Shown here in pieces: positions 25,579 to 63,684 of a stretch of 64,000 bases of DNA (the stretch's first letter is position 1; the number at the start of each line of letters is the position of its first letter). The DNA comes from Candidatus Nitrosopumilus sp. Its GTDB lineage: Archaea; Thermoproteota; Nitrososphaeria; Nitrososphaerales; Nitrosopumilaceae. The stretch is taken from NCBI GenBank assembly GCA_028351415.1, contig JAOMJV010000003.1, positions 1 to 64,000 on the forward strand. Reading direction: 5' to 3'. The notes beneath the pieces are model-generated. The model ran no database searches. It saw only the letters and a program-made list of their open reading frames with translations, and was not told where the DNA came from. A program made the translations under genes and the position numbers.

Positions 25579-26115
25579 ATGAGTGAAAATCATGTTATTG
25601 CTTGGACAAGTGATTATTCTTTAAAATGGTCTGATTTTAAAGCCGAGTTGAACCCTGCAGTATTTGAGGATTCTCACAGCGCTATAAAATATGGGTTTAC
25701 GTGGACAGTTAACTCTGATAAAGTAAATGACGAAGTAGTTTTTTTAATTGATAGTATCAAAACTGTCACGGAATTTCATCCTTTATTGTCATGGGTTAGA
25801 GAATCTGAATCCAACGATAATTTATTAAAACATGAACAAGGTCATTTTGATTTGGCTGAAATGCTTAGGAGGGATCATAACGTTGTGTTTGAAAATAAAT
25901 TTTATCATAAAGTTTTTGAGACACGTGGCCAGAATGACGCGCAACGAAAACAATTCGCTAAATTAGATTCAGGTAAAATGATTTCAAATGAATTAGATGA
26001 ACTAAGTTTGATTTTAGCAAAAAATCGTAAAGAATATGATGCGGAAACCGAATATGGTCAAAATATTCCAAATCAATTAAAATTTACAAATATTTTTAAA
26101 AATCTACAACCTTAA
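25579..26115 (+). CDS. DUF922-like predicted zinc protease
   Basis: LKWSDFKAELNP... and KHEQGHFDLAEMLRRD (HExxH). Confidence 0.65.
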   Translation: MSENHVIAWTSDYSLKWSDFKAELNPAVFEDSHSAIKYGFTWTVNSDKVNDEVVFLIDSIKTVTEFHPLLSWVRESESNDNLLKHEQGHFDLAEMLRRDHNVVFENKFYHKVFETRGQNDAQRKQFAKLDSGKMISNELDELSLILAKNRKEYDAETEYGQNIPNQLKFTNIFKNLQP

Positions 26116-47955: not shown

Positions 47956-48360
47956 TCATCTTGAATGAAACTTTGCCAGTATCTTCCGTCTGCATTTCTC
48001 CGGATTCTTTTCAATGTCATGCTCCCACAGTCTGAGGACGGACCATCCGTCCCGTCTTAGCTTTCGGTTGTACCTCCTGTCGCGCCTCATGTTGTTCTCA
48101 ATCTTGTCGCGCCAGAACTTTTTTGCAAGCCTTTTTTTTTGGCCGTACCTGTACCCGTGCCAAAAGTCGCCGTCGCAGAATATCGCAATCCTCTTTCTTT
48201 TGTGAGCAAAGTCAGGATTGCCGTACATCTTTGGATACATTTCAAACCTGTACCCCGTGTCTTCAAGCATCTGCTTCATGATAAGATCAATCTTTGTGTT
48301 GCTTCCGCGTATCCTTGACATTACCCATGATCTTTTTTCAGGAGTGAAGATGTCCGTCAT
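47956..48360 (-). CDS. vsr: very short patch repair (Vsr-type) endonuclease
   Basis: DIFTPEKRSWVMSRIRGSNTKIDLIMKQMLEDTGYRFEMYPKMYGNPDFAHKRKRIAIFCDGDFWHGYRYG...RRYNRKLRRDGWSVLRLWEHDI. Confidence 0.92.
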   Translation of the reverse strand: MTDIFTPEKRSWVMSRIRGSNTKIDLIMKQMLEDTGYRFEMYPKMYGNPDFAHKRKRIAIFCDGDFWHGYRYGQKKRLAKKFWRDKIENNMRRDRRYNRKLRRDGWSVLRLWEHDIEKNPEKCRRKILAKFHSR

Positions 48361-48497
48361 GCAAAAAACCTACGCATATGTTTTATCAAACAGTACGTGC
48401 CAAAATTAATGTCTTTTGAACTCTAAAAATAGTGTCCAAATGGAAGTGTATGTGTTTGATGACAACAATTTTAACATAACATGTTTTAGAAATTTAC

Positions 48498-48707
48498 ATG
48501 GTTTCTGTATTAAACACTGAAATTTTAAGAGTACTGGGAACAAAAGACGAAGTAAAGTTAAATGAATTGTATGAAATAGTTGGCAAACATCCTGACTTTA
48601 CGTGGGATCTTTCAGTAAGAAAACACAGAGTCAGAAGCGCACTTGACAATCTAAAAAGGCAAAACAAGGTTGAGCGTTCTGCAGACAGAACCTACAAGTT
48701 AGTTTAA
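48498..48707 (+). CDS. small wHTH-like protein
   Basis: LRVLGTKDEVKLNELYEIVGKHPDFTWDLSVRKHRVRSALDNLKRQNKVERSADRTYKLV. Confidence 0.6.
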   Translation: MVSVLNTEILRVLGTKDEVKLNELYEIVGKHPDFTWDLSVRKHRVRSALDNLKRQNKVERSADRTYKLV

Positions 48708-48726
48708 TTTTTGTTGGATGAATAAT

Positions 48727-49827
48727 TTACTTTATTGTTTTATCATTGAATCTAAATTCAATATCATTGTACTTACATTCTATAATCAGATCTTGATACT
48801 TTCTTTTGACTTCTTCATCAGTTGCAACATCAGTTCCTGAAAGATAACAAACTAATTTTTTTGAATATTTTATTCCATCAATCGTAATATCAGATTTTTT
48901 AAAGATCATTAGTTTGAATAACGCGTCTAACACATCATTCTCATCTGGAAATTTTCCTTTTGTAGTGTGTTTGCCTTCTAGAATTTCAATTATCCTATTC
49001 TTTTTGTCTATGGAAACACTGTCTGCAGTTAAGAAAATTGTTTTTGAATTTCCCATGTCGACGTTGAACTTTCCTTTTTTACCTGGAACATTTTCTAGTT
49101 TTTGATCACTGGAAAATTCTCTGTGTTGAGCTTTTTCTGATTCCTTGTCTGAATCTAGTAAAAATTTTGGTATGTCTGTATGCCAAACTCCCAGTTTCTT
49201 TTCCAGGGATTTGAAACTTCTTACAAAGACCCCCAGTTCTTTCCCCAACCGCCTGTTATTTTCTATTGCAGTTTTTAACAAAGAAGGGATTCTAACTAGC
49301 TGCTTTTGATTCCAATCTTCTACTTTTGGACAATTTGATACTATCTCCTTCACTTGCTCTAGCAATTCATCATTTTCAAATTCAAAACTTGTGAAAACAG
49401 GCTCTCCTTGAGTGCTGGCTTTGCCTTTGCTGGCATTTGCAGCAGCTTTTCCCTTGGGTCTCATCTTTGCCTTTGTATACACGCCAACAATCACATAGAC
49501 TCCCAACCCTGACATCCATGAAATTGTACCTGGCTGAAGCTTGTTGTCATCACCATGTTTTCCATAACTTGCCTGAACTGGAATGATTGTGATCTTTTTT
49601 CCGTGATGACCTAGCGTACTGTAGACTCTTGGAAACGGATAAGTTTTGGTTCTTTTCGGTGTCGTCCACACACTGATGGCAACAACATCGTCTCCGATTT
49701 TAGATTTGAACGATGTGTTGTTTTCTGTCATTGCGTTGTTAAATTCCAATTCTTTTAATCCTGGATCTTTTGAAAAATTGTAAGACTCTCTTCCAAGTGT
49801 CACTTCAATAATTTCCGGTTCTACCAT
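48727..49827 (-). CDS. candidate restriction endonuclease partner of adjacent Dam-type methylase
   Basis: Follows the methylase gene with a 22-nt gap; RIIEILEGKHTTKG is a possible nuclease core. Assignment is by context. Confidence 0.4.
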   Translation of the reverse strand: MVEPEIIEVTLGRESYNFSKDPGLKELEFNNAMTENNTSFKSKIGDDVVAISVWTTPKRTKTYPFPRVYSTLGHHGKKITIIPVQASYGKHGDDNKLQPGTISWMSGLGVYVIVGVYTKAKMRPKGKAAANASKGKASTQGEPVFTSFEFENDELLEQVKEIVSNCPKVEDWNQKQLVRIPSLLKTAIENNRRLGKELGVFVRSFKSLEKKLGVWHTDIPKFLLDSDKESEKAQHREFSSDQKLENVPGKKGKFNVDMGNSKTIFLTADSVSIDKKNRIIEILEGKHTTKGKFPDENDVLDALFKLMIFKKSDITIDGIKYSKKLVCYLSGTDVATDEEVKRKYQDLIIECKYNDIEFRFNDKTIK

Positions 49828-49849
49828 AAGTAAAATCTGTTAGTCTTGG

Positions 49850-50713
49850 TTATATGTAAAATATTTTTTTAAGTTCACCATTTTTATCAAGATTAATTTT
49901 GATATCCTTGCTGAAAATTAATATCTCACGTGATTTTTTGTTATCGGACATTTTTTTATCAGTGGCCATTGAATACGACCACTTGGGTTCAAGAATAGTG
50001 TGACCCTTGTAGAGTTCCCTGATCGAATCTATGTTGTTGTAAGACATAATCCATTTTTTCTTTTTATCATTTTTTAGAATTTCAGCCAATCCTTTGTGAT
50101 CAAAATTTTTGTGAATCTTGCCATCATTCCCGTACAGTTGGCTTTCAATCAGATACGGAGGATCAAGGTACATCAAATCTTTTTTATGACTTTTAATTGA
50201 TTTTTTAAAATCAATGCATTTGATGGACAACAAGTTTTCCACTTTGAAGTTTCTAATTCTGTCAACTGATGACTCTGTAAATCTTGGATTTGTGTCAATT
50301 GTTCCGTTCGTCTTTTTCTCCCTTGCCATTCCAACTGCAAGTGGGTTTCCAGAATGTGACGTTCTGTTCAGAACATAAAATTCCGTAGCATTTGTCAATC
50401 TGTTTTTTGCCTTTGGGTGTTTTTTCTGCATTTTTTTGTAATCTTCCTCGGTAAATTTTCCGGGCTTGTGCTTCTCGACTTTCTTTGCAAGTCTTTGGGG
50501 GTTTTCAAGCATCTCCTGCCAAAAATCAACCAGCGGCTGAAACTTGTCGTATCCCGTAACCTTAATTCCCTGCTGGGCACAAAATATCTCCAAAGAACCC
50601 CCTCCAAAGAACGGTGAGCACAGAGTCTTTGGCTCTAGCGGCTCTATGTATTTCCAAATTGTCTTTACTGCTCTTGATTTACCCCCCGGATAGCGCAGTG
50701 GGGATTTTATCAT
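49850..50713 (-). CDS. Dam-family N6-adenine DNA methyltransferase
   Basis: KSPLRYPGGKSRAVKTIWKYI, SPFFGGGSLEIFCA, DLMYLDPPYL. Confidence 0.92.
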   Translation of the reverse strand: MIKSPLRYPGGKSRAVKTIWKYIEPLEPKTLCSPFFGGGSLEIFCAQQGIKVTGYDKFQPLVDFWQEMLENPQRLAKKVEKHKPGKFTEEDYKKMQKKHPKAKNRLTNATEFYVLNRTSHSGNPLAVGMAREKKTNGTIDTNPRFTESSVDRIRNFKVENLLSIKCIDFKKSIKSHKKDLMYLDPPYLIESQLYGNDGKIHKNFDHKGLAEILKNDKKKKWIMSYNNIDSIRELYKGHTILEPKWSYSMATDKKMSDNKKSREILIFSKDIKINLDKNGELKKIFYI

Positions 50714-50722
50714 GATTTTTGA

Positions 50723-51448
50723 TTAAATGTTGTGTTTTATAGTTCTACAATATCTGCAATAGGATTGAACAATAATTTTTTTATCCTTCATTTTTCTATA
50801 TCCAAACAGTCTTTCAATTTCATCATACCCTTTAGCTTCTTCCCCGCATCCTTTTCTTGCACAAAATGCCTCTTGAGGAAAATTATGGAATTTTTTTTCA
50901 AAGTTTAATTTTTCTTCATTTAAATAATTTATGAGATCTTTTATGTCATCTTTTACCCATATATCATTAAACAGTGGAGATTTTTTAGAATTTTCATTCC
51001 ACTTTCTAAGCTGAGAGCCCTCTACAATCATTATTAGATGATAAATATTTTTATATTCTTTTATGAATTTTCTATATTTTATGATATCTTCTTCTAATAA
51101 ATTTTCATGTGCTTCAACAATAATTTTTCTATCGTTAATACGAAATCCAAAAATCATCATATCTGGAATATACACGTAATTTTTTGAGTTTACTTCTAGG
51201 GGAAACTTTCTATGTTTAAATTCAATTTGGAATTCTTTGTCCTTCATATTATCTAAAATCTTTGTTTCCCATTTTGAAAAATCTCTATTTGGGTTAAAAT
51301 TTGTAAAATCTACTAAATCTAATTTTACTGCTTTCTTTTTTTTCTTTTTGTAATGTGAACTTTTATCCTTATTTTTTAAAATTTCAAATAATTCTCTAAA
51401 TGCGGAAGAACCAGAACCTAAAATTTTAAATTTTTTATTCGAACTCAA
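50723..51448 (-). CDS. PD-(D/E)XK-like protein with C-terminal zinc finger (island gene)
   Basis: YIPDMMIFGFRINDRKIIVEAHENL nuclease-like core; CARKGCGEEAKG...SYCRYCR. Confidence 0.45.
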   Translation of the reverse strand: MSSNKKFKILGSGSSAFRELFEILKNKDKSSHYKKKKKKAVKLDLVDFTNFNPNRDFSKWETKILDNMKDKEFQIEFKHRKFPLEVNSKNYVYIPDMMIFGFRINDRKIIVEAHENLLEEDIIKYRKFIKEYKNIYHLIMIVEGSQLRKWNENSKKSPLFNDIWVKDDIKDLINYLNEEKLNFEKKFHNFPQEAFCARKGCGEEAKGYDEIERLFGYRKMKDKKIIVQSYCRYCRTIKHNI

Positions 51449-52418
51449 TTTTATATATACACTCCTTATTTATTTTTAGATATTTTTGTTTTAAAAATAT
51501 TTCATCATACGGGTTACGAATTTCATCATATAGATATATTTCTGAAGAATCCACATTACACCATATCTGCAAATAATAGTTATTTCCTATTTCTTGAGAT
51601 ACTTTGATTTCATTTTTACTCCAAAAAATAATCGGTTTGCTATTTTTTGTACCCTTTACCTCGATGTATTTGTCATATTTTAAATCAGAATTATTTCCTG
51701 TGAATGAAATTATGTCGTATCCTAAATTTTCATCCAATGCGCTGACTCTCTTTACAGCAGAGCTAAGAATTCCTTCATTCATATTTAACAGTCTTTCTTT
51801 TTCCTTTTTTACACATTCAAGTTCAGCTAATTTCCCAATTTTCTTCTTTAATTCCTCCCTTTCATCAATATCTTCTTCTGTAACTGGGTGATTATTGCGT
51901 AATTTGGAAAGAATTTCTGATAATTTGTTGTCTATCAAAAATACACCTTTTTTAGCTTTGATTAAATTAATTTCTTGTAATAATTGCCTGTACATAGCTG
52001 GTATTTTGTACATTTCTTTAATTTCAATTTTATTTATTGCGTCTACATGCGCCCAATCAATTACTGATCTCGAAAAAACTTCTTTTACTATTGGGTTATC
52101 CCAAATTTTAGATTCTTTTATGATTTCTATTAATAGTTTTTTTTGTAATGAAAGTGATTTGTCTATCACTTGTTTTTTATTTTCTCCCAACATTATTGAA
52201 TCGTATAGTTTTTCTCCGTTCTTATTTATTGAAATTTCCTGATTATTTTTTTTAAAAATTTTTAATTCAAAACATGTTTGTAAAAGTTCATTAAAATTTA
52301 CATTATGTTCTGAATAATCCCTTTTGTATATGTCCTCAGTAAATTTTATTTTTAAATTGTTATTCACTCCAAATTGTTTAACTATGCATAATATCTGATT
52401 TATTTCAGACGTTATCAT
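51435..52418 (-). CDS. DUF3883-like domain protein (PD-(D/E)XK fold) C-terminus
   Basis: ENLGYDIISFTGNNSDLKYDKYIEVKGTKNSKPIIFWSKNEIKVSQEIGNNYYLQIW. Confidence 0.7.
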   Translation of the reverse strand: MITSEINQILCIVKQFGVNNNLKIKFTEDIYKRDYSEHNVNFNELLQTCFELKIFKKNNQEISINKNGEKLYDSIMLGENKKQVIDKSLSLQKKLLIEIIKESKIWDNPIVKEVFSRSVIDWAHVDAINKIEIKEMYKIPAMYRQLLQEINLIKAKKGVFLIDNKLSEILSKLRNNHPVTEEDIDEREELKKKIGKLAELECVKKEKERLLNMNEGILSSAVKRVSALDENLGYDIISFTGNNSDLKYDKYIEVKGTKNSKPIIFWSKNEIKVSQEIGNNYYLQIWCNVDSSEIYLYDEIRNPYDEIFLKQKYLKINKECIYKIEFE

Positions 52419-54318
52419 TTAGGTACTCTCTTATTCTGTTGATCACTCTGCCATACATTTCTAAATTTTCATGTGACATATTTGTAAAATTGTTATAATC
52501 TATATCCAATCCACCTACTTGGATATTATTTTCGTTTAACATTCTCATTAATTCTCTTTCCTTATTTTCTAAATTTAATTTTATATCTTCGTCAATAGTT
52601 TGTCTGGTGAAAAGAATGTCTATTTTTGTATCTCTTGCTTGTTCTTGTGTTAGCCCATATCTCCAAATTCTAAATTTACTTTGAATCCAATTTGCAGCAT
52701 TATACATTCTATCCACATAAATTGCATGGTGACATTCTCTGTGTAGGGACACAGATTCTGACAATGATGCAGGATTTGCAATTAAAATATTATGGTCATC
52801 CTTATGTTTAAAATCTTCAATAATTTTTTCTTTATTGTTTGTAGGATCGTCCTCATCTGATTGAGGAATTTTTCCATAAATAATATCTGAATTATATCCT
52901 AATTCTTGAGCAATATTTTGTACTTTTTCTATAGTTTTTCTAAAACTACACCAAATCAATAATTTTTCTGGAGGATTTTGTTCCATGGATTGTATTATCA
53001 TTTCTTTTAATACAATTAATTTTCCCGGTGTTTCATATTTCCAATAATCTTCAAGTATAGTTTCTAGTGGAACTCCTTCTGAATCAAAAACTTCGTTAGT
53101 GTATTGATTTTCAGATTGAAGCAATGATGGATCTGTTGCGGCTTCTAAAAGATACATAATGTGTCTATCAATGTCTGAAACCGCCGAATTTCGATCTTCA
53201 TTAAAAGTTGGAATCCCTCTGGCTAACATGTCATTTGCAATTGTTCTGTAAATTCTTGTTTGATCTTTTCCCATTGGACAATGAATGTAATTTGGTATTA
53301 CTGGTTCTAAATCTAAATCGTTTAATCCAATTCTCATCCAATATGGATTAATTTCTTCATAAATTCGTGTAAATTCTGCAGGGTTTTGTATCCGTCTCTC
53401 AAATTGCCCGTATTCTCCTAGTATGTTCTGTGCAGGGTTAAGAAATTCAAACTGTGTCCAAATATCTGCAAATTTATTTGGTAGCGGGGTTCCAGTTAAA
53501 ATCATTCTTCTAAATGCAAATGTTGCAAATTCACTAATTGCCATCCATGTCTCTGATGCTGGATCTTTAATGTGGTGAGCTTCATCCAGTATCACTAAGA
53601 ATCTATTCTGTCTTATGAAATTCTGAATTAATTCTGAATCTCTTCGTACTGTGTCATAATTAATTAGGAAAATTTCGTGACTTGTATCCCTTTCATAGAT
53701 ATGTATACGTTCTTCCTTAGTTCCTACAATTCTTTTAAATTTTTGAATGTTTTCACCCGTGATAATTTGATATTCTGTTTCCCATGTCTTGAATGCTGAT
53801 TTTGGACATATCACGAGTAATTTTTCAACATTGTTTTGTTCAGGTTTATCTTTTAATAAAAAATAACTTGCGTACGCTGTCCATGTTTTCCCACTTCCTG
53901 GAATTGAAAAATTTGCTACATTTTGAACAATTTCTCCATGTCTGACCACTCTATTCTGAAATGGAGTTAGTTCGTGTTGTGGCAAAAAGCCTGGAATTCT
54001 AATTGCTGGAATGTTATCCACATTCCTTTGCTTCATGTCTAATGCATTGTTTCTATTTTGTTGATATGTTATTCGTTGCTGTTGTAAATTATCCAGAATT
54101 GTTTGAATTTGGTTGTCATTTTCATGTTCTAAATTAAGATCGTCTAGAAATGATATCATGTCTTGTAATATTTGTGGGTTATCATTAATCACCTCAAAAT
54201 TATTTTCTGATTTCTTTGTTGCATTTCTTTTAAGATGACTTAACAGAAAAATATTTTTTTTGTTTTGATCATCGACTGATAGACTAAACCCCTTACTTAT
54301 TTTTGAAATGCCTATCAA
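52405..54318 (-). CDS. SNF2-family DEAD-like helicase
   Basis: NFSIPGSGKTWTAYASYFLL, FLVILDEAHHIKDPASETW, ILTGTPLPNKFADIWTQFEFLNP, NILIANPASLSESVSLHRECHHAIYVDRMYNAANWIQSKFRIWRYG. Confidence 0.88.
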   Translation of the reverse strand: MIGISKISKGFSLSVDDQNKKNIFLLSHLKRNATKKSENNFEVINDNPQILQDMISFLDDLNLEHENDNQIQTILDNLQQQRITYQQNRNNALDMKQRNVDNIPAIRIPGFLPQHELTPFQNRVVRHGEIVQNVANFSIPGSGKTWTAYASYFLLKDKPEQNNVEKLLVICPKSAFKTWETEYQIITGENIQKFKRIVGTKEERIHIYERDTSHEIFLINYDTVRRDSELIQNFIRQNRFLVILDEAHHIKDPASETWMAISEFATFAFRRMILTGTPLPNKFADIWTQFEFLNPAQNILGEYGQFERRIQNPAEFTRIYEEINPYWMRIGLNDLDLEPVIPNYIHCPMGKDQTRIYRTIANDMLARGIPTFNEDRNSAVSDIDRHIMYLLEAATDPSLLQSENQYTNEVFDSEGVPLETILEDYWKYETPGKLIVLKEMIIQSMEQNPPEKLLIWCSFRKTIEKVQNIAQELGYNSDIIYGKIPQSDEDDPTNNKEKIIEDFKHKDDHNILIANPASLSESVSLHRECHHAIYVDRMYNAANWIQSKFRIWRYGLTQEQARDTKIDILFTRQTIDEDIKLNLENKERELMRMLNENNIQVGGLDIDYNNFTNMSHENLEMYGRVINRIREYLNDNV

Positions 54319-54319
54319 T

Positions 54320-55624
54320 TTATTTATTTATCAGGTTACTAATTTTTTCAGTTATATCATTTAATGTTTCTATGAAATCTTCATCCTCTAAATTAGATGT
54401 AATTTTATTGGTATCTAATGCTAATAGAAAATCCTTGAATTTTTCAAACTCCATACCTGGGTCATCTGCAACACTGTCATATGCGTCTGCCACTGTCTCT
54501 AAATTCTTGTATGATTTTTCAATTTGACTTTCATCCATTTTTTTAATAAATGATACATCCCCTGTAGTTTTAACTTTTTGATAAACTTGATCATTCAGTA
54601 AGTATTCATTTGTTAATGTTGGATTTTTCTGAAAACACTTGTTTATTGATCTTATTTTACCATGTGATTTTTTTGGTTTAAGTGCAGTAGTCAATAATGC
54701 CCACTTTCTTGCTTCAATATCCACCTCAGATACCCCACTCCCTGGTTCTCTTAATGCAGTTAAAACATTTAAAATATTTTGAAAATATGTTAATCCTCCT
54801 GCATTTTCTTTATTTTGAATCAAGTTATATTTTCGAGGCTTGTCTAACACGTTGTTCAAAAAATCATCAATTAAATCTATGAGTTCTTTTTCCTTAATGA
54901 TTCCCTTCCAATTACCTTTTACTTTTGGAAATGCATTTTTCATATAATTTTTATCTTCATTTGTAGGATTTTGCCAATCCTTGATGTACTCTGTATCCAA
55001 TAATCTTTTTCTAATGTTCAAACATTCTGTAACTGCAGAATAGTTTTGCTTAAAATCTTCTTTTCTTTGTAATCTTGTTTCTAAATCCTCCAATTGTTTT
55101 ATGTTCATTTCAGGTAAAACTACCACTTCAACAAATCCATACTTGGCATCTTGTTCATCAATTTCTAAATGATATCTATTTGCAATCCTTCTATTCCCAT
55201 TCCAAATTATGCCCGTATTGCTAATTATTGCAGGATCATTTTGACCTATATTTATTAACTCTGATTTTAAATCTCCTGAACTTACATTAGAATAACTTTC
55301 AGCTGTTAATAGGATATTCCGTATTTTATCTTGATGTTTTAAGTTCTCATAATCCAATTCTTCCCCTGTTTGTTCCAGTTCATATTTGTAATCCTCTAAT
55401 TGATCTGTAATTCTCCCATTGTTATAATTTAATCTTAATTGTGTTATTGGTATTGTATACACCGGTAAATCTTTTACATCAGTATCGCTAAAAACTCCAA
55501 CGGGATATGTCTTCCATTTAGCATCTGTTGTTCCGTCTACTGTTATGCTTACCCCATGAGCATTTAGATCTTGAAACTGTTTAATTATCTCCTTTCTTGA
55601 TGTTGTCCAACTATTATTACTCAT
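54320..55624 (-). CDS. ParB N-terminal-like domain protein
   Basis: VYTIPITQLRLNYNNGR...ISNTGIIWNGNRRIANRYHLEI...GFVEVVVLPE (GNRR motif). Confidence 0.65.
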   Translation of the reverse strand: MSNNSWTTSRKEIIKQFQDLNAHGVSITVDGTTDAKWKTYPVGVFSDTDVKDLPVYTIPITQLRLNYNNGRITDQLEDYKYELEQTGEELDYENLKHQDKIRNILLTAESYSNVSSGDLKSELINIGQNDPAIISNTGIIWNGNRRIANRYHLEIDEQDAKYGFVEVVVLPEMNIKQLEDLETRLQRKEDFKQNYSAVTECLNIRKRLLDTEYIKDWQNPTNEDKNYMKNAFPKVKGNWKGIIKEKELIDLIDDFLNNVLDKPRKYNLIQNKENAGGLTYFQNILNVLTALREPGSGVSEVDIEARKWALLTTALKPKKSHGKIRSINKCFQKNPTLTNEYLLNDQVYQKVKTTGDVSFIKKMDESQIEKSYKNLETVADAYDSVADDPGMEFEKFKDFLLALDTNKITSNLEDEDFIETLNDITEKISNLINK

Positions 55625-55689: not shown

Positions 55690-58600
55690 TTATTCCTCCG
55701 TCACCTTTGCATCACAGATACTCTGGTACGAACAGAACATACATGCATTGTAGCTAGGTGTTGCCTCAAAGTTCTCTAGCAAAATCTCCTTTGTCATGCC
55801 AATGATTGTATCCACTGTCTCCTTAACTGACTCCTCGGTCACTGGATACTCTACCATCTTGTCTTTTTCCACATAAAACAGGGATGCTTTTACGGGCAGT
55901 TCCCCCTTTAGTTTCTCCACTGCCATTGCATAGATGTTCAGCTGCGGGTCTATCTTGGCCTTGTTTTTTGACTTTACGGTTTTGCCAGACTTGAAATCAA
56001 CCACCTCGTACTTTCCATCAGGATTCTTCTCCAACCTGTCTATCCTTCCAGTAAACGTAATCTCACCAATCTTCACATCAAATGGTACCTCCAAACCTAC
56101 AAGCTCGTTCTTTGTTTCTTTTTCCCATTTGACATACGTCTTGACCATTCCTTCAGCTCTCTCAGTTGCGGTGTCTTCCTCTGATTGACTTTGATAGGAG
56201 TTGAAAATCCACTTGTCCTTAATTTTTTCTAGCGCTTTTTCTTCAACTACTTCCTCTCCCTTCATTTTCTCATTTGCAACTTCTTCTGTGATTGCATGAA
56301 CTACGTTCCCAAGATCCAATGCGACACTGGATGGACTTGGAACGCGTAAAATTTTTTGAAACTTGAATTTTAGCGGGCAGTCTGAATATGCCGTAATACT
56401 ACTTGGAGACAGTGTAAAACTTTCTTTGTTGATCAACGGAATTTTATCTCCGGTTAGTTCCTCAGTTAAATTGACATCATCAATGTTTATCTTCAACACT
56501 TCTTGCGCGTCAAAATTATCAAAGCTCCCATGTTTTTCAAAATGTTTTACTCTTGCCAGTTCTACAATTCTGTGTATCGCAGTTTTTAGATTCAACTGAT
56601 TAATTGCACTTGCTGCTTCTTTTTGCAAGTCTGCCTTTACTCTGTCAATGATTTCCTCTGCCTGCATGTTCATGGAATCTGATTCCTTGAAATCAATCAA
56701 TTTGATCAGTGGATTTTTCTCATAATCTAATTCCGTCAAGAATTGGGATGGATCCTTTTCGTTTACATTTCCAGGATATTTCTTTGGATACAGCAAAAAT
56801 AGCATGTTCATGGCACGGGTCATCCCTACGTAAAAGAGCCTGCGCTCTTCTTCCAGGTGCAACTGGCTGGTCTCTATGGTTCTGTCTACTCCTCTCATTA
56901 GTTTTTGAGGCACGTGAAATGTTCTATCCTTGTATGACACTGGAAACCTTTTCTCAGCTAAATCCGTAATGAACACTACGGGAAACTCCTTTCCCTTGCT
57001 TTTGTGCAATGTCTGAACGTTTACCGCATCCTCAAAAAGTACGTCCTTAATCTCAATTTCAAATTCACCTAAAATAGAAACGTGGATTAAAAATTCTGAT
57101 AAGGGTTCATCAGAATAGATGTCCTGAAATTCTTGTGTTATCTCGTAAAATTTATTTAATAAAATAATATTTTTCTTGTCTTGTATTTTTTCTGAATATA
57201 TTGATTTTTTATAGATGTCCGAATACGACATCATAATTTTATACACAAGTTGTGAAATGGTGGCAGTACTGGAAAAAGTAATTATGTTGTCAATTTGTTC
57301 AATCAGTTCCTTGATTTCTTCTTTTTGAGTAATATCAAACTCGTCAAACTTGCGCAGTGTATCTAAAACATAGTCGTCTTGGCCGTCATAGACATGTCGA
57401 GCTTTCTTGTGTGCGGCATGTGTGATGACTGTAATATTTTTTTCTGCAACTCCCTGACTCTTTAGCAGTCTGAATACTTCTGCGCCAGATGATAGTGGGG
57501 AACTGGTAATTTTTAAAAATGAAATCAAATCCAGTATGCCCGGACTTGAAAATATGTTTGACTCTCCGGTAAACGTTGCAGGTATGCCAAATGATTTTAG
57601 TGTCTTTGCAAATTTCTGTCCTTCTGTCTTTCTTCTTGACAAGACTGTAATGTCGCTGTAGGCAATTGGCTTGGTAGTCCCGTCCCGTCTTTTTAGTGGC
57701 TTTCCAATAATTTTTTGAATTGTGTTGACTGTAAATTCCACTTCCCCGTTATCTGAGGCTGTTCGGATAACTTTGATTAGTTCCCCCTCCTCATGTGATG
57801 AAAACAGTGACTTTTTCACTCTGTTGGATATTGGATTTAGAAGCTGGTTTGCCAATTTGACAATGTTTTGATTGCTGCGATAGTTTTGGCTTAGTTCTAC
57901 CGTGTCACAGGTGTACGATGACTTGAAGTCATCAAATATTCCCGAATACGCTCCCTGAAATTTCATTATGCATTGATCATCGTCCCCTACTGCCGTGATG
58001 TTTCCGTGCTTTGCCAACAGTTTGAGAATTTCCATCTGTGAAAAATTGTTATCCTGAAACTCGTCAACCAAAATGTGTTGGAATTTTTTCTGATAATTTG
58101 ATAGAATTACAGGATCTTTTTGCAGCAACTCTACAGTTTTTGTAATCATGTCATCAAAGTCTATCAGTTGTTTTTCTTTTAGATGCGCTTGATACGCGTA
58201 ATACACCTTGTTGAACTCGTTTAATTTTTTAAAGAATTTGGTCTGCTCTTTTACCTCGTCTTCTTCGGGGTCTCTTGAATCCAATATTTTTAAATTTTCA
58301 TCAACATGCTGCTGAACCCTGTCGGGTGAGATCATCTCTTCCTTGAAATTACTTATTGCCTCTAAAATTGCAGAGTAAATTCTAACTTGGTTATTACCTA
58401 GCTCAAGATAGTTTGAATCAAAATTAAACTTGTCTGTGTTCCTGATACACCATACTGTCTGTGATGATTTTTTTAAAATTTTTGTATCCCTTCCCAGACC
58501 TGACTCCATAAAGTTTTCCTCCAGAATTTCTTTTGAAAAAGCATGAAACGTGCTAATTTTTGCGTCAATGATTCCGTGCTTTTCCAGTCTCTGCTTCATC

Positions 58601-58785
58601 TCCCCTGCAGCTTTGTCTGTGAATGTTAAGCACAAAATTGATGACTGCTCCACATCCGACTTTACTAGTTGGAGAATTTTTTCAATGATGACTCTGGTCT
58701 TTCCGCTTCCGGGACCTGCAATTACAAGCAACGGGCCTTTGGAGTGACTTGCAGCCTTTGCTTGCTGTTCGTTTAATTCAAACAT
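55690..58785 (-). CDS. UvrD/Rep-like SF1 helicase fused to C-terminal RecB-like nuclease with Fe-S-type cysteines
   Basis: GPLLVIAGPGSGKTRVI, ILVDEFQDNN, VQTLHKSKGKEFPVVF; C-terminal SDCPLKFKF, EVVDFKSGK, PQLNIYAM, CMFCSYQSIC (AddB/Cas4-like Cys arrangement). Confidence 0.9.
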   Translation of the reverse strand: MFELNEQQAKAASHSKGPLLVIAGPGSGKTRVIIEKILQLVKSDVEQSSILCLTFTDKAAGEMKQRLEKHGIIDAKISTFHAFSKEILEENFMESGLGRDTKILKKSSQTVWCIRNTDKFNFDSNYLELGNNQVRIYSAILEAISNFKEEMISPDRVQQHVDENLKILDSRDPEEDEVKEQTKFFKKLNEFNKVYYAYQAHLKEKQLIDFDDMITKTVELLQKDPVILSNYQKKFQHILVDEFQDNNFSQMEILKLLAKHGNITAVGDDDQCIMKFQGAYSGIFDDFKSSYTCDTVELSQNYRSNQNIVKLANQLLNPISNRVKKSLFSSHEEGELIKVIRTASDNGEVEFTVNTIQKIIGKPLKRRDGTTKPIAYSDITVLSRRKTEGQKFAKTLKSFGIPATFTGESNIFSSPGILDLISFLKITSSPLSSGAEVFRLLKSQGVAEKNITVITHAAHKKARHVYDGQDDYVLDTLRKFDEFDITQKEEIKELIEQIDNIITFSSTATISQLVYKIMMSYSDIYKKSIYSEKIQDKKNIILLNKFYEITQEFQDIYSDEPLSEFLIHVSILGEFEIEIKDVLFEDAVNVQTLHKSKGKEFPVVFITDLAEKRFPVSYKDRTFHVPQKLMRGVDRTIETSQLHLEEERRLFYVGMTRAMNMLFLLYPKKYPGNVNEKDPSQFLTELDYEKNPLIKLIDFKESDSMNMQAEEIIDRVKADLQKEAASAINQLNLKTAIHRIVELARVKHFEKHGSFDNFDAQEVLKINIDDVNLTEELTGDKIPLINKESFTLSPSSITAYSDCPLKFKFQKILRVPSPSSVALDLGNVVHAITEEVANEKMKGEEVVEEKALEKIKDKWIFNSYQSQSEEDTATERAEGMVKTYVKWEKETKNELVGLEVPFDVKIGEITFTGRIDRLEKNPDGKYEVVDFKSGKTVKSKNKAKIDPQLNIYAMAVEKLKGELPVKASLFYVEKDKMVEYPVTEESVKETVDTIIGMTKEILLENFEATPSYNACMFCSYQSICDAKVTEE

Positions 58786-59612
58786 TATGGAATCACCACG
58801 TACAAGGGAACGTTCATTGCAGACTTGTCTTTGATTGCTTCTCTAAAATCAGTTGTGTTGAAATTCACGCCGACAATTGAATTTAACGCATCAACACATG
58901 TTTCACTGTATGGTGATGTCATAAATTGCCTGAATCCTCTATACGCCAAAGGCTGACTGTCCATGAATTCATTGCAATATGGGTTCAAGTCCAGATCGAA
59001 TCCTATCCTTGGTTCTCCTGGTAATCTGTTTGATATTTTCAAATTTTTTCTTGCCACGTTGGCATTGCAAATTGACTCATCCCATAGAATTCCCTGTATT
59101 TGTCTCTCTGCCCTGAACTGATGATACTCATTGCTGTTCATTGTGTTGCACTGAGTCAACGAATAATCAATTGCATAGTGACCCAACTCATGACGCAACA
59201 ATACTTTTTTTGCAATGTTGTTCATATCTCTATGAATTTCCTGTGACGTCTTTTGACCGTTTGGCATGTTCATGAAAATACTTCCATTTGGATCATTAAT
59301 GATTTTATTTTCAAAATATGATGCAAGCCAATTGATTCCACTTTCAAGGAAGTAAATCCCCCAGTCTGCCGGAGACACGTGCGGTGATACGTAATATGCC
59401 AACACGTCAATGTCTGCAATCTCGTTTCCTTCCATCACGCTGTCAAATTGAATTTGTCTTTGGTTGCCATGATCTGTTTCCGGTTGATATCGGTTGAACT
59501 GTTGATGTGACATTCTTTGTATGTGTCCGTCAAAAAAATCGATGTCTCCCTCAAATGGCCGATTTAAATCCATTAATCTTATCTGCAATGGATTTAGTCT
59601 CTCGTGCATCAT
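58785..59612 (-). CDS. predicted zinc metalloprotease (HExxH)
   Basis: KKVLLRHELGHYAIDYSLTQ (HELGH) with downstream ERQIQGILWDESICNA candidate third ligand; overlaps both operon neighbours. Confidence 0.65.
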   Translation of the reverse strand: MMHERLNPLQIRLMDLNRPFEGDIDFFDGHIQRMSHQQFNRYQPETDHGNQRQIQFDSVMEGNEIADIDVLAYYVSPHVSPADWGIYFLESGINWLASYFENKIINDPNGSIFMNMPNGQKTSQEIHRDMNNIAKKVLLRHELGHYAIDYSLTQCNTMNSNEYHQFRAERQIQGILWDESICNANVARKNLKISNRLPGEPRIGFDLDLNPYCNEFMDSQPLAYRGFRQFMTSPYSETCVDALNSIVGVNFNTTDFREAIKDKSAMNVPLYVVIP

Positions 59613-60358
59613 CTTCTTCTTGCCTCCAAAACAGATAGCGGCTTTTCAATTCCATTTTTGTTATTGGAACAAGTCGTTTGGTAGTTGCACAGTTTGCAAA
59701 ACGAGTTCACCTGACCGTCTGGCATCTCTTTGGACTTTATTGCATTTTCAATTGCTGTTACCTTGCTGATAATCCAGTTTGACATGTCCTCTTTTTGTAT
59801 TTCAAATGATACGACGTCATTCATGTCAAGATAGACTATCGTCAGTTTCTCCACTGGAATTATGTTCTCAAATATTGTTCCATAGATTTGAATCTGCTTG
59901 ATGTGTGAGTCAAACGGCAATAGTCCTTCGCTTGTACTTTTGGAAACATTATCCATTGTTTTAAACTCGATAATGTTCTTCTCTTCTGGATCGTAGCAAT
60001 CCAGCCTTCCAAAGACCGGAATGTCTTCCCCGTTTATGCTTACTGTGTATTTTCCTTCAAGCTCGTTCCAGCTGTATGCCTGAGTTATCTGGTGAAGAAA
60101 GTTACCCCTGGTTGTCCTCCATATGTTGTCCTCCACCTGTGTCAGGTCTATTTTTTCAAAGGATGTCCTGGTTTTTTGAAAAAATGCCTTTCTTGGACAG
60201 CCTAGAAGGGCACTGACAGAGTACCCCATTGTATTTCTGGCAGGATAAATCCTGTTCTCCCTTCCCAGAAACTCTATGATTTTGTCTGGTGTTTTGATTT
60301 GTTGTGTTCTTCTCATGACAACCTTAGTCGGCAAATCTATTGATGCATGCAAATGCAA
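59609..60358 (-). CDS. Cas4/RecB-like nuclease; likely start ATG at 60316
   Basis: ALLGCPRKAFFQKTR, VFGRLDCYDPEEKNIIEFKTM, HIKQIQIYGTIF, FCKLCNYQTTC. MRRTQQ start at 60316 avoids overlap with the operator. Confidence 0.75.
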   Translation of the reverse strand: MHLHASIDLPTKVVMRRTQQIKTPDKIIEFLGRENRIYPARNTMGYSVSALLGCPRKAFFQKTRTSFEKIDLTQVEDNIWRTTRGNFLHQITQAYSWNELEGKYTVSINGEDIPVFGRLDCYDPEEKNIIEFKTMDNVSKSTSEGLLPFDSHIKQIQIYGTIFENIIPVEKLTIVYLDMNDVVSFEIQKEDMSNWIISKVTAIENAIKSKEMPDGQVNSFCKLCNYQTTCSNNKNGIEKPLSVLEARRR

Positions 60359-60383
60359 AGTGCAGAAAAAATCTGCAACTTTA
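60348..60383. repeat. 36-bp inverted-repeat element, left copy; contains palindrome TGCAGA-AAAAA-TCTGCA (60361-60377), putative operator
   Basis: tgcaaatgcaaagtgcagaaaaaatctgcaacttta is the exact reverse complement of 63682..63717. Confidence 0.92.
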
Positions 60384-60426
60384 GATTTGCGTGATCCATA
60401 AATAGAAAGTTATTTTGAATTACTAC

Positions 60427-61341
60427 ATGGCTAGCCCAAAAATTACTGTCTTGATTGCTTTAATTGGCAAGCATCCACAACATGTTGAACATTTCATCCG
60501 GGAAAGGGGGTCACAATTAAAGAGAATTCACTTGCTGCATACATGTGACAATGATCAACCTCCCAGCAGAGATGGAAGTGATGGAACATCTGAATGCAAA
60601 TGTTGTGGGATGGGAGGGCTAATTGATTATGGAGAACTATCAAACAAGTTTGTAAAAAAACTACAACGAAAATACAAACCAGAGAAAGGAAAACCCAAAT
60701 CAGGCATAACGATAATTCCTGAACCTTATGATGAAGCTCATGACCTTTGGGAGGTGCAGGATAGAATTTTAGAAATAGTTGGAAATGAACGAGAGGATGA
60801 TAGTGTACAGCTAAATAATATTGCATTGGAAATTAGCGGGGGAACCAACATTGCTGCAGCTGCACAAATATTTGCAATTTACAATTCAGAAATTGTTCCA
60901 TTCTATGTGGATAACAAACCAGATGAGAATGGAAATTGGGTTAGAGACATCATTGTACCTGAGAACTTTGGAAAAAAGTTAACCGCAAAAGCAAAAAATG
61001 TTTTGAAAGTCATTGCAGAATCTGAATTTACAGTAAAACCTAACGGACATTCAGAAACACCTGACGGTGAAGATCCACATCCGGTGAAAGGACAAATTAC
61101 TCGCATAGATCTTGAAAGAAAACTTGATGTGCGAAGAGCTCCGGATGGAATACTGAAGAAACTTGAACAATTCAAACTAATTGAAACTATTTCGCCCTAC
61201 GATGTTTACACGAATACATCTGATGAAGAGGATGACCCTACATGGGAGTTGGTTCCATATTCCTACAATGCCTACAAGATAACAAAAGCTGGAATAATAG
61301 CTGCAAGACGTTTTAAAATATCTGAACAAGTGCAGAAGTGA
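60427..61341 (+). CDS. CARF-like sensor with C-terminal wHTH (Csa3/HFX_2341-like regulator)
   Basis: ITVLIALIGKHPQHVEHFI, ITIIPEPYDEAHDLWEVQDRILEIVG, ALEISGGTNIAAAAQIFAIY (CARF-like nucleotide-binding fold), RIDLERKLDVRRAPDGILKKLEQFKLIET...YKITKAGIIAARRF wHTH. Track start is TTG 60415; ATG at 60427 preferred. Confidence 0.65.
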   Translation: MASPKITVLIALIGKHPQHVEHFIRERGSQLKRIHLLHTCDNDQPPSRDGSDGTSECKCCGMGGLIDYGELSNKFVKKLQRKYKPEKGKPKSGITIIPEPYDEAHDLWEVQDRILEIVGNEREDDSVQLNNIALEISGGTNIAAAAQIFAIYNSEIVPFYVDNKPDENGNWVRDIIVPENFGKKLTAKAKNVLKVIAESEFTVKPNGHSETPDGEDPHPVKGQITRIDLERKLDVRRAPDGILKKLEQFKLIETISPYDVYTNTSDEEDDPTWELVPYSYNAYKITKAGIIAARRFKISEQVQK

Positions 61342-61357: not shown

Positions 61358-61391
61358 AAAATCTAATTTGTTTTGATTGCGTGTTAACTGT

Positions 61392-62354
61392 ATGTTAATT
61401 TTTAAAAATTATTTACCTTCTGCAAACTGTTTTAAAATTTATTATAAATGCAATGAGGAATTAGATATCATGGGTTTTGAAGATCATTACAATCCTGAAA
61501 ATGAATCTGACATTATTGATAAACAAACTAAGTTTTTTATCCATTTGAAAAATCATAACATTAAATCATCACCTAATAAGGCTGAATTTATAATATTATT
61601 TGGTTCACTGTTAGAATCAAAAATTAGAAATAAAATTATCAAAGAAATAAACAGTCATCCAATTAGTTATTTGGATGAATTACCAACATTAATCGTTCGT
61701 AGTAAACCCTATGACAGAATTGAAAAAAATAGTTACAATCCATTTGAGCAACTGTCAAGTTTGATTTCACATAATGAAAGAGTGGAAGAGGAAGTGATTG
61801 AGTCGCAATGGTCACATTTGACTGAATCTATAAAGAAATTACCTCCAATAAGTCTTGGTGAATTTGTTTCAAAATGTTATAGTTACAATTCTCCTGGTCC
61901 CATTTTTAAAATGTTGAGTGACTTTGCATTATTTGAAAATTGGGAAAAAAATAACCCAAAAAAAAGAAATTTTGATTTGCATGATAAACAATTTACTATG
62001 TACCTTTTACAAAGAAATAATGTTGTACATGAACTACTTAATACAGAAATAAGTAATACTGAATATATTAAACAAAATTTAGAAAATATTTTAAAAAGTA
62101 TTGTTAGAATGGTGGAAACAGCATTAGAAGTTAGAAGAATTTCTATTGATAGTTTTAAATCCGCTGAAAAAACTAATGTTGATTTTCAATTATCTTGGCT
62201 AAAAAAAATTAAAGGTGATTGTAACAAAAATAAAATGAAAAATTGGAACAAACATGGGTATTCTAAATTGTTTACTACAGAAACAACTGTCAATAAATTA
62301 GATTCAGAATCAGAATATCTGATCAAAAAATTGGGAGGGGATTTAAATGTATGA
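61392..62354 (+). CDS. HEPN-like domain protein, candidate ribonuclease
   Basis: FTMYLLQRNNVVHELLN contains RNxxxH in an alpha-helical C-terminal domain (YIKQNLENILKSIVRMVETALEVRRI). Track start is TTG 61377; ATG 61392 preferred. Confidence 0.55.
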   Translation: MLIFKNYLPSANCFKIYYKCNEELDIMGFEDHYNPENESDIIDKQTKFFIHLKNHNIKSSPNKAEFIILFGSLLESKIRNKIIKEINSHPISYLDELPTLIVRSKPYDRIEKNSYNPFEQLSSLISHNERVEEEVIESQWSHLTESIKKLPPISLGEFVSKCYSYNSPGPIFKMLSDFALFENWEKNNPKKRNFDLHDKQFTMYLLQRNNVVHELLNTEISNTEYIKQNLENILKSIVRMVETALEVRRISIDSFKSAEKTNVDFQLSWLKKIKGDCNKNKMKNWNKHGYSKLFTTETTVNKLDSESEYLIKKLGGDLNV

Positions 62355-63684
62355 TGAAACAAATTTGAAGACATTTATTTATTTAAAAAAAAGTAAAAGA
62401 ATTTCCATCAGAAAACTAGAACAAAAAATTAAAGAGTTACATTTTGACGATGTTCAGGATGAGACTTTTAAAGAAATCCTTGAACAAATTCATTCGTTGT
62501 GCGGGGATGTTTATTTTTCAAAAAATAGATTTGGTGCGGCAATAAAACAGTATGAGTTATGCCTGAAATATAATTCTGGAAACATTCACGCAATAGTCGG
62601 ACTTGCAAACTCATTTCAATCTTTAGGCCTGGATAGCTTGTCTGGGGAAAAATTTACTAAATCTGAGAGTTTTTACGTCTGGAAAAGGACATTTCTTGGC
62701 AATACTTTAGATAATGAACGGGATTTTGTCCCCGAAAATCCCGATGATGCGGGTAATGATGAATTTCAATGCATTCCCAAAAGCCTTCTTTTCAATATTG
62801 CAATACTTGAAAAATCTAAACGCATATTTGAATATCTTGGTAGAGTAGAGCCATCTGCAGATTTTTCAGAATCGTATATTTTTATTGATGATGATTTGTC
62901 CATTGAACAAAATATTGGAGACGATGTTGACAATATGGTTTCTAAATTAGTAAATAATTTTCCACAACTCGAAAAGATTAAAAAATATAATAAAACTCAA
63001 TTCAAAATAGATTCAAAACCATACAAAATTAACTCAAAAAATATTTCACGTACAACAACCCTGTACAGCTGCATTCCAAACGAGACATTGAAATCTAAAA
63101 AAATTAGCTCGTTATACTTTTCATATCTCTTATCTGGTTTTACTGAAAATTCAATTTTAGATAAAATTAGAGACGAATTAAAAATAATTATTAAATCAGA
63201 AAATTATTACATGCGAGAAGATTTCAAAAAAATAATCTTCAAACATTGGTTGGAATGTGTAGGAGATAAAAAATCCCTTCTGTCTATGAATATATCCGAT
63301 GAGACACTAAGCTTAAAACAAATTATTGACGGCACAATAGCTACGGGTCAGATAATCAAAGCTCTCAATCAACAACGGGATAGATTCAATCCTGAAACAA
63401 TTTGTCATAATATTACTAGCAAAAATATTGCAAAGATTTTGACTGAATCAGTAGAAGATTATGTTAAACTATGTGATTCAAATAAAAAAATAAAGGATAG
63501 CACTAATTTTCATTTAGATTCCGGGCCTGGATCTTTATTAGAAATGTTGCAAGATAAATTGCAACAAATGAGTGTGGCTGAAAAACCTCATAAGACCAGC
63601 AAAAACAAGCCTAAAAACACGAGAAAAGATCCTATAACTTACGCCAAATTATATGCTAAAATTAAAAAACTTAGAACTGATTAA
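62347..63684 (+). CDS. TPR-like protein, partner of HEPN-like gene
   Basis: DVYFSKNRFGAAIKQYELCLKYNSGNIHAIVGLANSFQSLG TPR-like; 8-nt overlap with HEPN-like gene. Confidence 0.6.
   Translation: MYDETNLKTFIYLKKSKRISIRKLEQKIKELHFDDVQDETFKEILEQIHSLCGDVYFSKNRFGAAIKQYELCLKYNSGNIHAIVGLANSFQSLGLDSLSGEKFTKSESFYVWKRTFLGNTLDNERDFVPENPDDAGNDEFQCIPKSLLFNIAILEKSKRIFEYLGRVEPSADFSESYIFIDDDLSIEQNIGDDVDNMVSKLVNNFPQLEKIKKYNKTQFKIDSKPYKINSKNISRTTTLYSCIPNETLKSKKISSLYFSYLLSGFTENSILDKIRDELKIIIKSENYYMREDFKKIIFKHWLECVGDKKSLLSMNISDETLSLKQIIDGTIATGQIIKALNQQRDRFNPETICHNITSKNIAKILTESVEDYVKLCDSNKKIKDSTNFHLDSGPGSLLEMLQDKLQQMSVAEKPHKTSKNKPKNTRKDPITYAKLYAKIKKLRTD

Follow-up and report, generated by a model that had tools for sequence, protein, structure and literature searches.

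An orphan gene for a putative HELGH metallopeptidase between Cas4-like and helicase-nuclease genes in Candidatus Nitrosopumilus

In the window (the whole 64,000-nucleotide stretch of a Candidatus Nitrosopumilus contig that was analysed), an orphan gene for a putative zincin-type metallopeptidase overlaps two nuclease genes, and this arrangement is real. The region is probably one of virus defence in this marine archaeon. A firmer lead than the protease itself is the robust observation that, in Nitrosopumilaceae, genes for CARF-wHTH and Cas4-like proteins form a pair attached to varying defence genes. The window locus is a variant of this CARF/Cas4-like module, carrying a UvrD gene and the orphan gene. 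We tentatively prefer to read the genes as a three-gene defence cassette with an accessory zinc peptidase that would act in the manner of PprI or CapP, a reading that falls somewhat short of probable.

Results

Three minus-strand genes, in the order Cas4-like, HELGH and helicase-nuclease, are followed by a defence block, and a CARF-wHTH-like gene diverges from them at a distance of 56 nt from the Cas4-like gene:

60415-61341, plus strand: CARF-wHTH-like protein (PADLOC CARF3, 7.5e-11; likely start ATG at 60427)
60359-60414, no strand: divergent intergenic region with TGCAGA-N5-TCTGCA, a possible operator (repeat search)
59609-60358, minus strand: Cas4-like Fe-S PD-(D/E)XK nuclease (Pfam Cas_Cas4, 3.5e-7; possible true start ATG at 60316)
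58785-59612, minus strand: putative zincin-type metallopeptidase, orphan, 275 aa (ORF, coding potential)
59178-59192, minus strand: HELGH, residues 141-145, predicted zinc-binding/catalytic motif (sequence motif)
59064-59078, minus strand: ExxCN (ESICN: E179-S-I-C182-N183) with E179 as candidate third zinc ligand (motif comparison, post hoc)
55690-58785, minus strand: UvrD-like SF1 helicase fused to a PD-(D/E)XK nuclease with CxxCx5C (Pfam)
47956-55624, minus strand: adjoining defence block (Pfam, PADLOC and PHROGs matches)

The overlaps of the HELGH gene with both nuclease neighbours, as claimed in the original prediction, proved exact: it shares 4 nt (ATGA) with the Cas4-like gene, and at TAATG a single nucleotide (1 nt) belongs to both it and the helicase-nuclease gene. 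These start/stop overlaps on either side bear out the proposed translational coupling with two DNA-processing enzymes. The HELGH frame scores +0.205 bits/codon for coding potential and the remaining five frames between -0.49 and -0.58, and the plus-strand reading of the same interval contains 14 stops. With a peak 19-residue hydropathy of 0.56, the protein is predicted to be without a membrane segment.

The motif lies in the context LLRHELGHYA, which agrees with the zincin consensus. A loose HExxH alone is weak evidence, because 1.5% of shuffles of the protein contain one. The strict zincin-like form (LxHELGH) is beyond chance, since only 0.05% of the shuffles have it. Among the fetched ORFs of at least 150 aa, 5 of 477 carry the strict motif; besides the HELGH protein, two of these carriers look like peptidases in Pfam, one being M48 above the cut-off and one M50B below it. 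In several Nitrosopumilaceae M78 proteases the catalytic region closes with ERWCN, EKWCN, ELLCN or similar, and ESICN resembles these endings. Its E179 is 34 residues past the second H of HELGH, compared with a gap of about 22-27 residues in two M78 relatives. ExxCN follows HELGH in 0.46% of shuffles, having been picked post hoc, and Exx[AC]N in 1.3%, also post hoc and with a spacing longer than in M78. HELGH and E179 may be regarded as candidate zinc ligands, and the protease activity as putative, given a short motif and its neighbours.

Placement in a family was sought widely. Searches of Pfam (up to E 10), NCBIfam and PADLOC gave no match to the protein; its best PHROGs hit (E 0.06, families of unknown function) is not above chance. 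Relatives numbered zero in 250 family, 400 class and 398 phylum genomes, and zero among viral contigs, GTDB contigs, phages, plasmids and PDB sequences. Weak genome matches to about residues 102-181 were rejected, all being without HExxH and chance-like in alignment. The families that had been suggested at the outset, ImmA/IrrE and DUF922, were not recovered: neither PF06114 (M78/ImmA-IrrE) nor DUF922 matches the protein in Pfam up to E 10, nor do SprT, M48, Peptidase U49 (Lit) or DUF2201. A DUF2201-type metallopeptidase was dropped for want of a match in relatives, and PF06114 found no match in the source draft genome. A local profile built from nine M78 segments of related archaea gives 2.7 bits, a score reached by 86 of 1000 HELGH-keeping shuffles; because of this the protein is not classed as M78. 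M78/ImmA-IrrE is the best motif lead (HELGH plus the downstream ExxCN), and the protein may work like an M78 protease without being assigned as a member. AlphaFold models made without relatives are of low confidence, with a pLDDT of 36 over the full length and 53 over residues 60-200, and with them Foldseek and VIA-align found no meaningful fold match (best Z 4.9, unrelated).

These results bear on the possibility that the gene does not encode a protease at all, but instead an orphan or fast-evolving accessory protein with a coincidental HELGH, or one that serves the helicase-nuclease as a structural subunit. The frequency of loose HExxH in shuffles, the lack of a family match and the M78 score within the range of shuffled controls are all consistent with it. 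However, the much greater rarity of the strict form and the presence of ExxCN at a plausible spacing downstream argue against it, and we regard it as unlikely. Elsewhere in the window, positions 25579-26115 encode a HEQGH-containing protein of 178 aa that looks DUF922-like by eye and matches no Pfam family up to E 10.

Both nuclease labels in the original prediction were upheld by domain matches and by key residues, which are kept in both enzymes. The Cas4-like protein scores below the TIGR00372 cut-off. It has the four cysteines and the RecB-type nuclease residues; C54, C221, C224, C230, H89, D120, K133, Q157 and Y159 are invariant in nine sequences. In the genomes sampled it has eight close relatives (36-43% identity) and further, more distant ones; the named relatives come from Nitrosopumilaceae and their kin. 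Neither Cas1 nor a convincing Cas10 was found in the source draft genome (1.07 Mb, 50 contigs, 78% complete), and the gene is without CRISPR-associated cas1/cas2 neighbours. The helicase-nuclease combines UvrD-helicase (6.6e-68), UvrD_C (1.4e-47) and a C-terminal PDDEXK_1 (2.1e-39) in one protein. Of 300 class genomes, 51 contain a match to it; about 20 matches are full length, and their contexts vary. At one of these loci, L033, the UvrD relative lies near a block of methylase, ParB-like, SNF2, NOV_C and endonuclease genes, and Cas4-like and HELGH genes are absent.

Conservation of the neighbourhood did not extend to the HELGH gene. A gene of this kind is beside none of the roughly 20 full-length helicase-nuclease relatives and is absent beside all 9-11 Cas4-like relatives examined. 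That the protein belongs to a recognisable family of proteases, in an arrangement with nucleases that is conserved, was not supported: the searches found no homologue of it, and the relatives of its neighbours are without the gene.

The same comparison touches on a second explanation, a DNA-end-clearing protease that strips bound or covalently attached proteins (terminal proteins, relaxases, crosslinks) and thereby lets the nucleases enter and degrade the DNA. Translational coupling with the helicase-nuclease and the Cas4-like nuclease fits such a role. There is also a precedent in SPRTN, described in excerpts of PMC5127644 as a metalloprotease that depends on DNA and resolves crosslinks between DNA and protein. 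Yet no SprT-family Pfam match is present, the relatives of both nucleases manage without a HELGH gene, and the acidic character of the protein (net charge -11) is unfavourable to direct DNA binding. We consider this role doubtful.

The Cas4-like, HELGH and helicase-nuclease genes have a G+C content of 0.39-0.40 (GC3 0.41-0.46), compared with 0.318 in the next block and 0.324 in the remaining window. Since this composition is common to the three and above the rest of the window, they probably arrived together as one unit. The nuclease relatives at other loci mostly have the composition of their own locus (the value for L038 is that of a neighbouring gene, not the helicase). A gap of 65 nt and a lower G+C mark off the adjoining defence block from the trio. 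Its genes come in the order weakly ParB-like, SNF2 helicase, NOV_C, endonuclease-like, D12-class (Dam-like) methylase and type II restriction endonuclease, with Vsr farther on; the first four have a G+C of 0.25-0.31. The core of the block is found again in L033, with another restriction enzyme.

Defence genes around the HELGH gene are also what a third explanation would lead one to expect. A peptidase may serve as an abortive-infection effector that cuts a host protein on infection, with the operon gating its expression or activity. Lit, for example, cuts EF-Tu. A lineage-specific, fast-changing gene would be expected of an effector. Moreover, an M48 metallopeptidase has been placed in an E. 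coli defence island with type I R-M and DarTG, according to excerpts of PMC12255303. On the other hand, the protein has neither a match to Peptidase_U49 (Lit) nor a homologue, no gene for an antitoxin or inhibitor is evident, and an effector of this type does not seem likely.

The CARF assignment itself is weak in Pfam (HFX_2341_N, 0.083), and a PF19810 search of the source draft genome gave no match. The protein aligns with clear CARF-wHTH relatives and has the GGT motif. All seven other Nitrosopumilaceae genomes with a close Cas4-like gene also have an HFX_2341_N CARF gene no more than about 6 kb from a Cas4-like gene. The CARF genes near Cas4-like genes are the weaker-scoring HFX_2341_N ones, and in some of these genomes strongly scoring CARF copies are elsewhere. 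An eighth locus, L080, has the same adjacent, divergent pair, and the combination recurs at L065, L067, L068, L069, L070, L071, L072 and L080. What adjoins the pair varies. Type I R-M genes are beside it in L068, L071 and L072 (HsdM by Pfam), and L070 is alike by eye; in L065 an MZB-domain DEAD helicase (COG1205/MrfA-type) adjoins the Cas4-like gene, and in L067 a MoxR and a VWA protein are found there. As the pair exists elsewhere without a HELGH gene, it needs no protease.

Downstream of the Cas4-like gene in L067 (9777-13237) are a MoxR-like ATPase, a 596-aa VWA protein that has a HELGH of its own, and a protein with a DnaJ-like end. The MoxR and VWA/HELGH pair was rejected as a parallel, the VWA protein having no phmmer link to the HELGH protein of the window.

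Discussion

Under the tentatively preferred reading, the divergent CARF-wHTH-like protein probably controls a cassette from which the Cas4-like nuclease, a cytosolic zinc peptidase and the UvrD/PD-(D/E)XK helicase-nuclease would be made jointly. Of this reading, gene order, overlaps, motifs, common composition and the recurrent CARF/Cas4 pairing elsewhere are directly observed. The peptidase would be a lineage-specific accessory, in a slot holding other genes at other loci, and may act on a protein target once the helicase-nuclease encounters invading or broken DNA. The most likely mode would be PprI/CapP-like: ssDNA or DNA ends from the helicase-nuclease would activate the peptidase, which would then cut a regulator or an infection-related protein. 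Excerpts of PMC10904395 describe PprI and CapP as ssDNA-activated HExxH proteases that cut regulators. We infer zinc binding, activity, trigger and substrate of the HELGH protein. Several points stand against the preferred reading. First, no homologue in which the motif might be conserved was found. Second, there is no significant profile or fold match, and the CARF call is weak in Pfam (0.083). Third, no adjacent CI-like repressor is present at the locus as a CapP-type substrate. CapP-like cleavage of the CARF-wHTH protein is conceivable and not favoured, being weakened by the existence of the CARF/Cas4 pair without a protease at other loci.

Comparison with known systems provides some clues. 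The M78/ImmA-IrrE proteases (PprI-DdrO, CapP-CapH) resemble the HELGH protein in an HExxH within a hydrophobic helix, followed at a distance by a candidate third-ligand ExxCN like that of Nitrosopumilaceae M78 proteins, and in a genomic tie to DNA damage or defence; ssDNA-triggered members exist (PMC10904395, in excerpts). They differ in the shorter gap noted above, and the HELGH protein is without a significant profile match, an adjacent CI-like repressor or a detected HTH domain. Fusions of UvrD to a pfam12705 (Cas4-like) nuclease have been reported in R-M and Vsr defence settings, and from mesophilic archaea, in excerpts of Hudaiberdiev et al. 2017 (PMC5704561), and the descriptions there mention no protease. 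The window operon differs in adding a separate Cas4-like gene and the orphan HELGH gene. Excerpts of the same paper also describe Cas4 with a COG1205 helicase; L065 corresponds to this, its Cas4-like gene being of the same family and adjoined by the DEAD helicase with MZB, whereas the window has an SF1 UvrD helicase. CARF-Lon (CalpL) systems likewise have a protease-like gene close to a CARF protein. Here, however, the motif is HExxH and not Lon, the CARF domain belongs to another protein, together with a winged helix, and neither CRISPR cas1 nor a convincing Cas10 was found in the source draft genome. The CARF-Cas4-HELGH-UvrD arrangement was not described in the excerpts of open-licence literature examined.

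A bolder version is improbable: a new archaeal zincin family would supply proteolysis to a helicase-nuclease defence under CARF control, and would either be activated by ssDNA or DNA ends or strip invader DNA of its proteins.

If the HELGH protein is a true protease, a defence operon built on nucleases would gain a proteolytic step in ammonia-oxidising archaea, whose immunity has been little studied. Whether or not it is, the association of the CARF-wHTH/Cas4-like pair with varying defence modules would bear on the role of many non-CRISPR Cas4 genes; the Cas4 literature, in the excerpts of PMC5704561, leaves the function of many Cas4 genes outside CRISPR undecided.

Downstream, the CARF-like gene is followed by two genes of low G+C (61377-63684 in the window) that have no PADLOC match and, where tested, no convincing Pfam, NCBIfam or PHROGs match. 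The TGCAGA-N5-TCTGCA repeat in the window is not significant alone, such a repeat being present in 32% of shuffles. Finally, the divergent CARF/Cas4 regions of L067 (8828-8848) and L080 (5649-5669), two different loci, have in common the palindrome ACTACAAA-N5-TTTGTAGT, which adjoins the CARF start in both and is a candidate operator.
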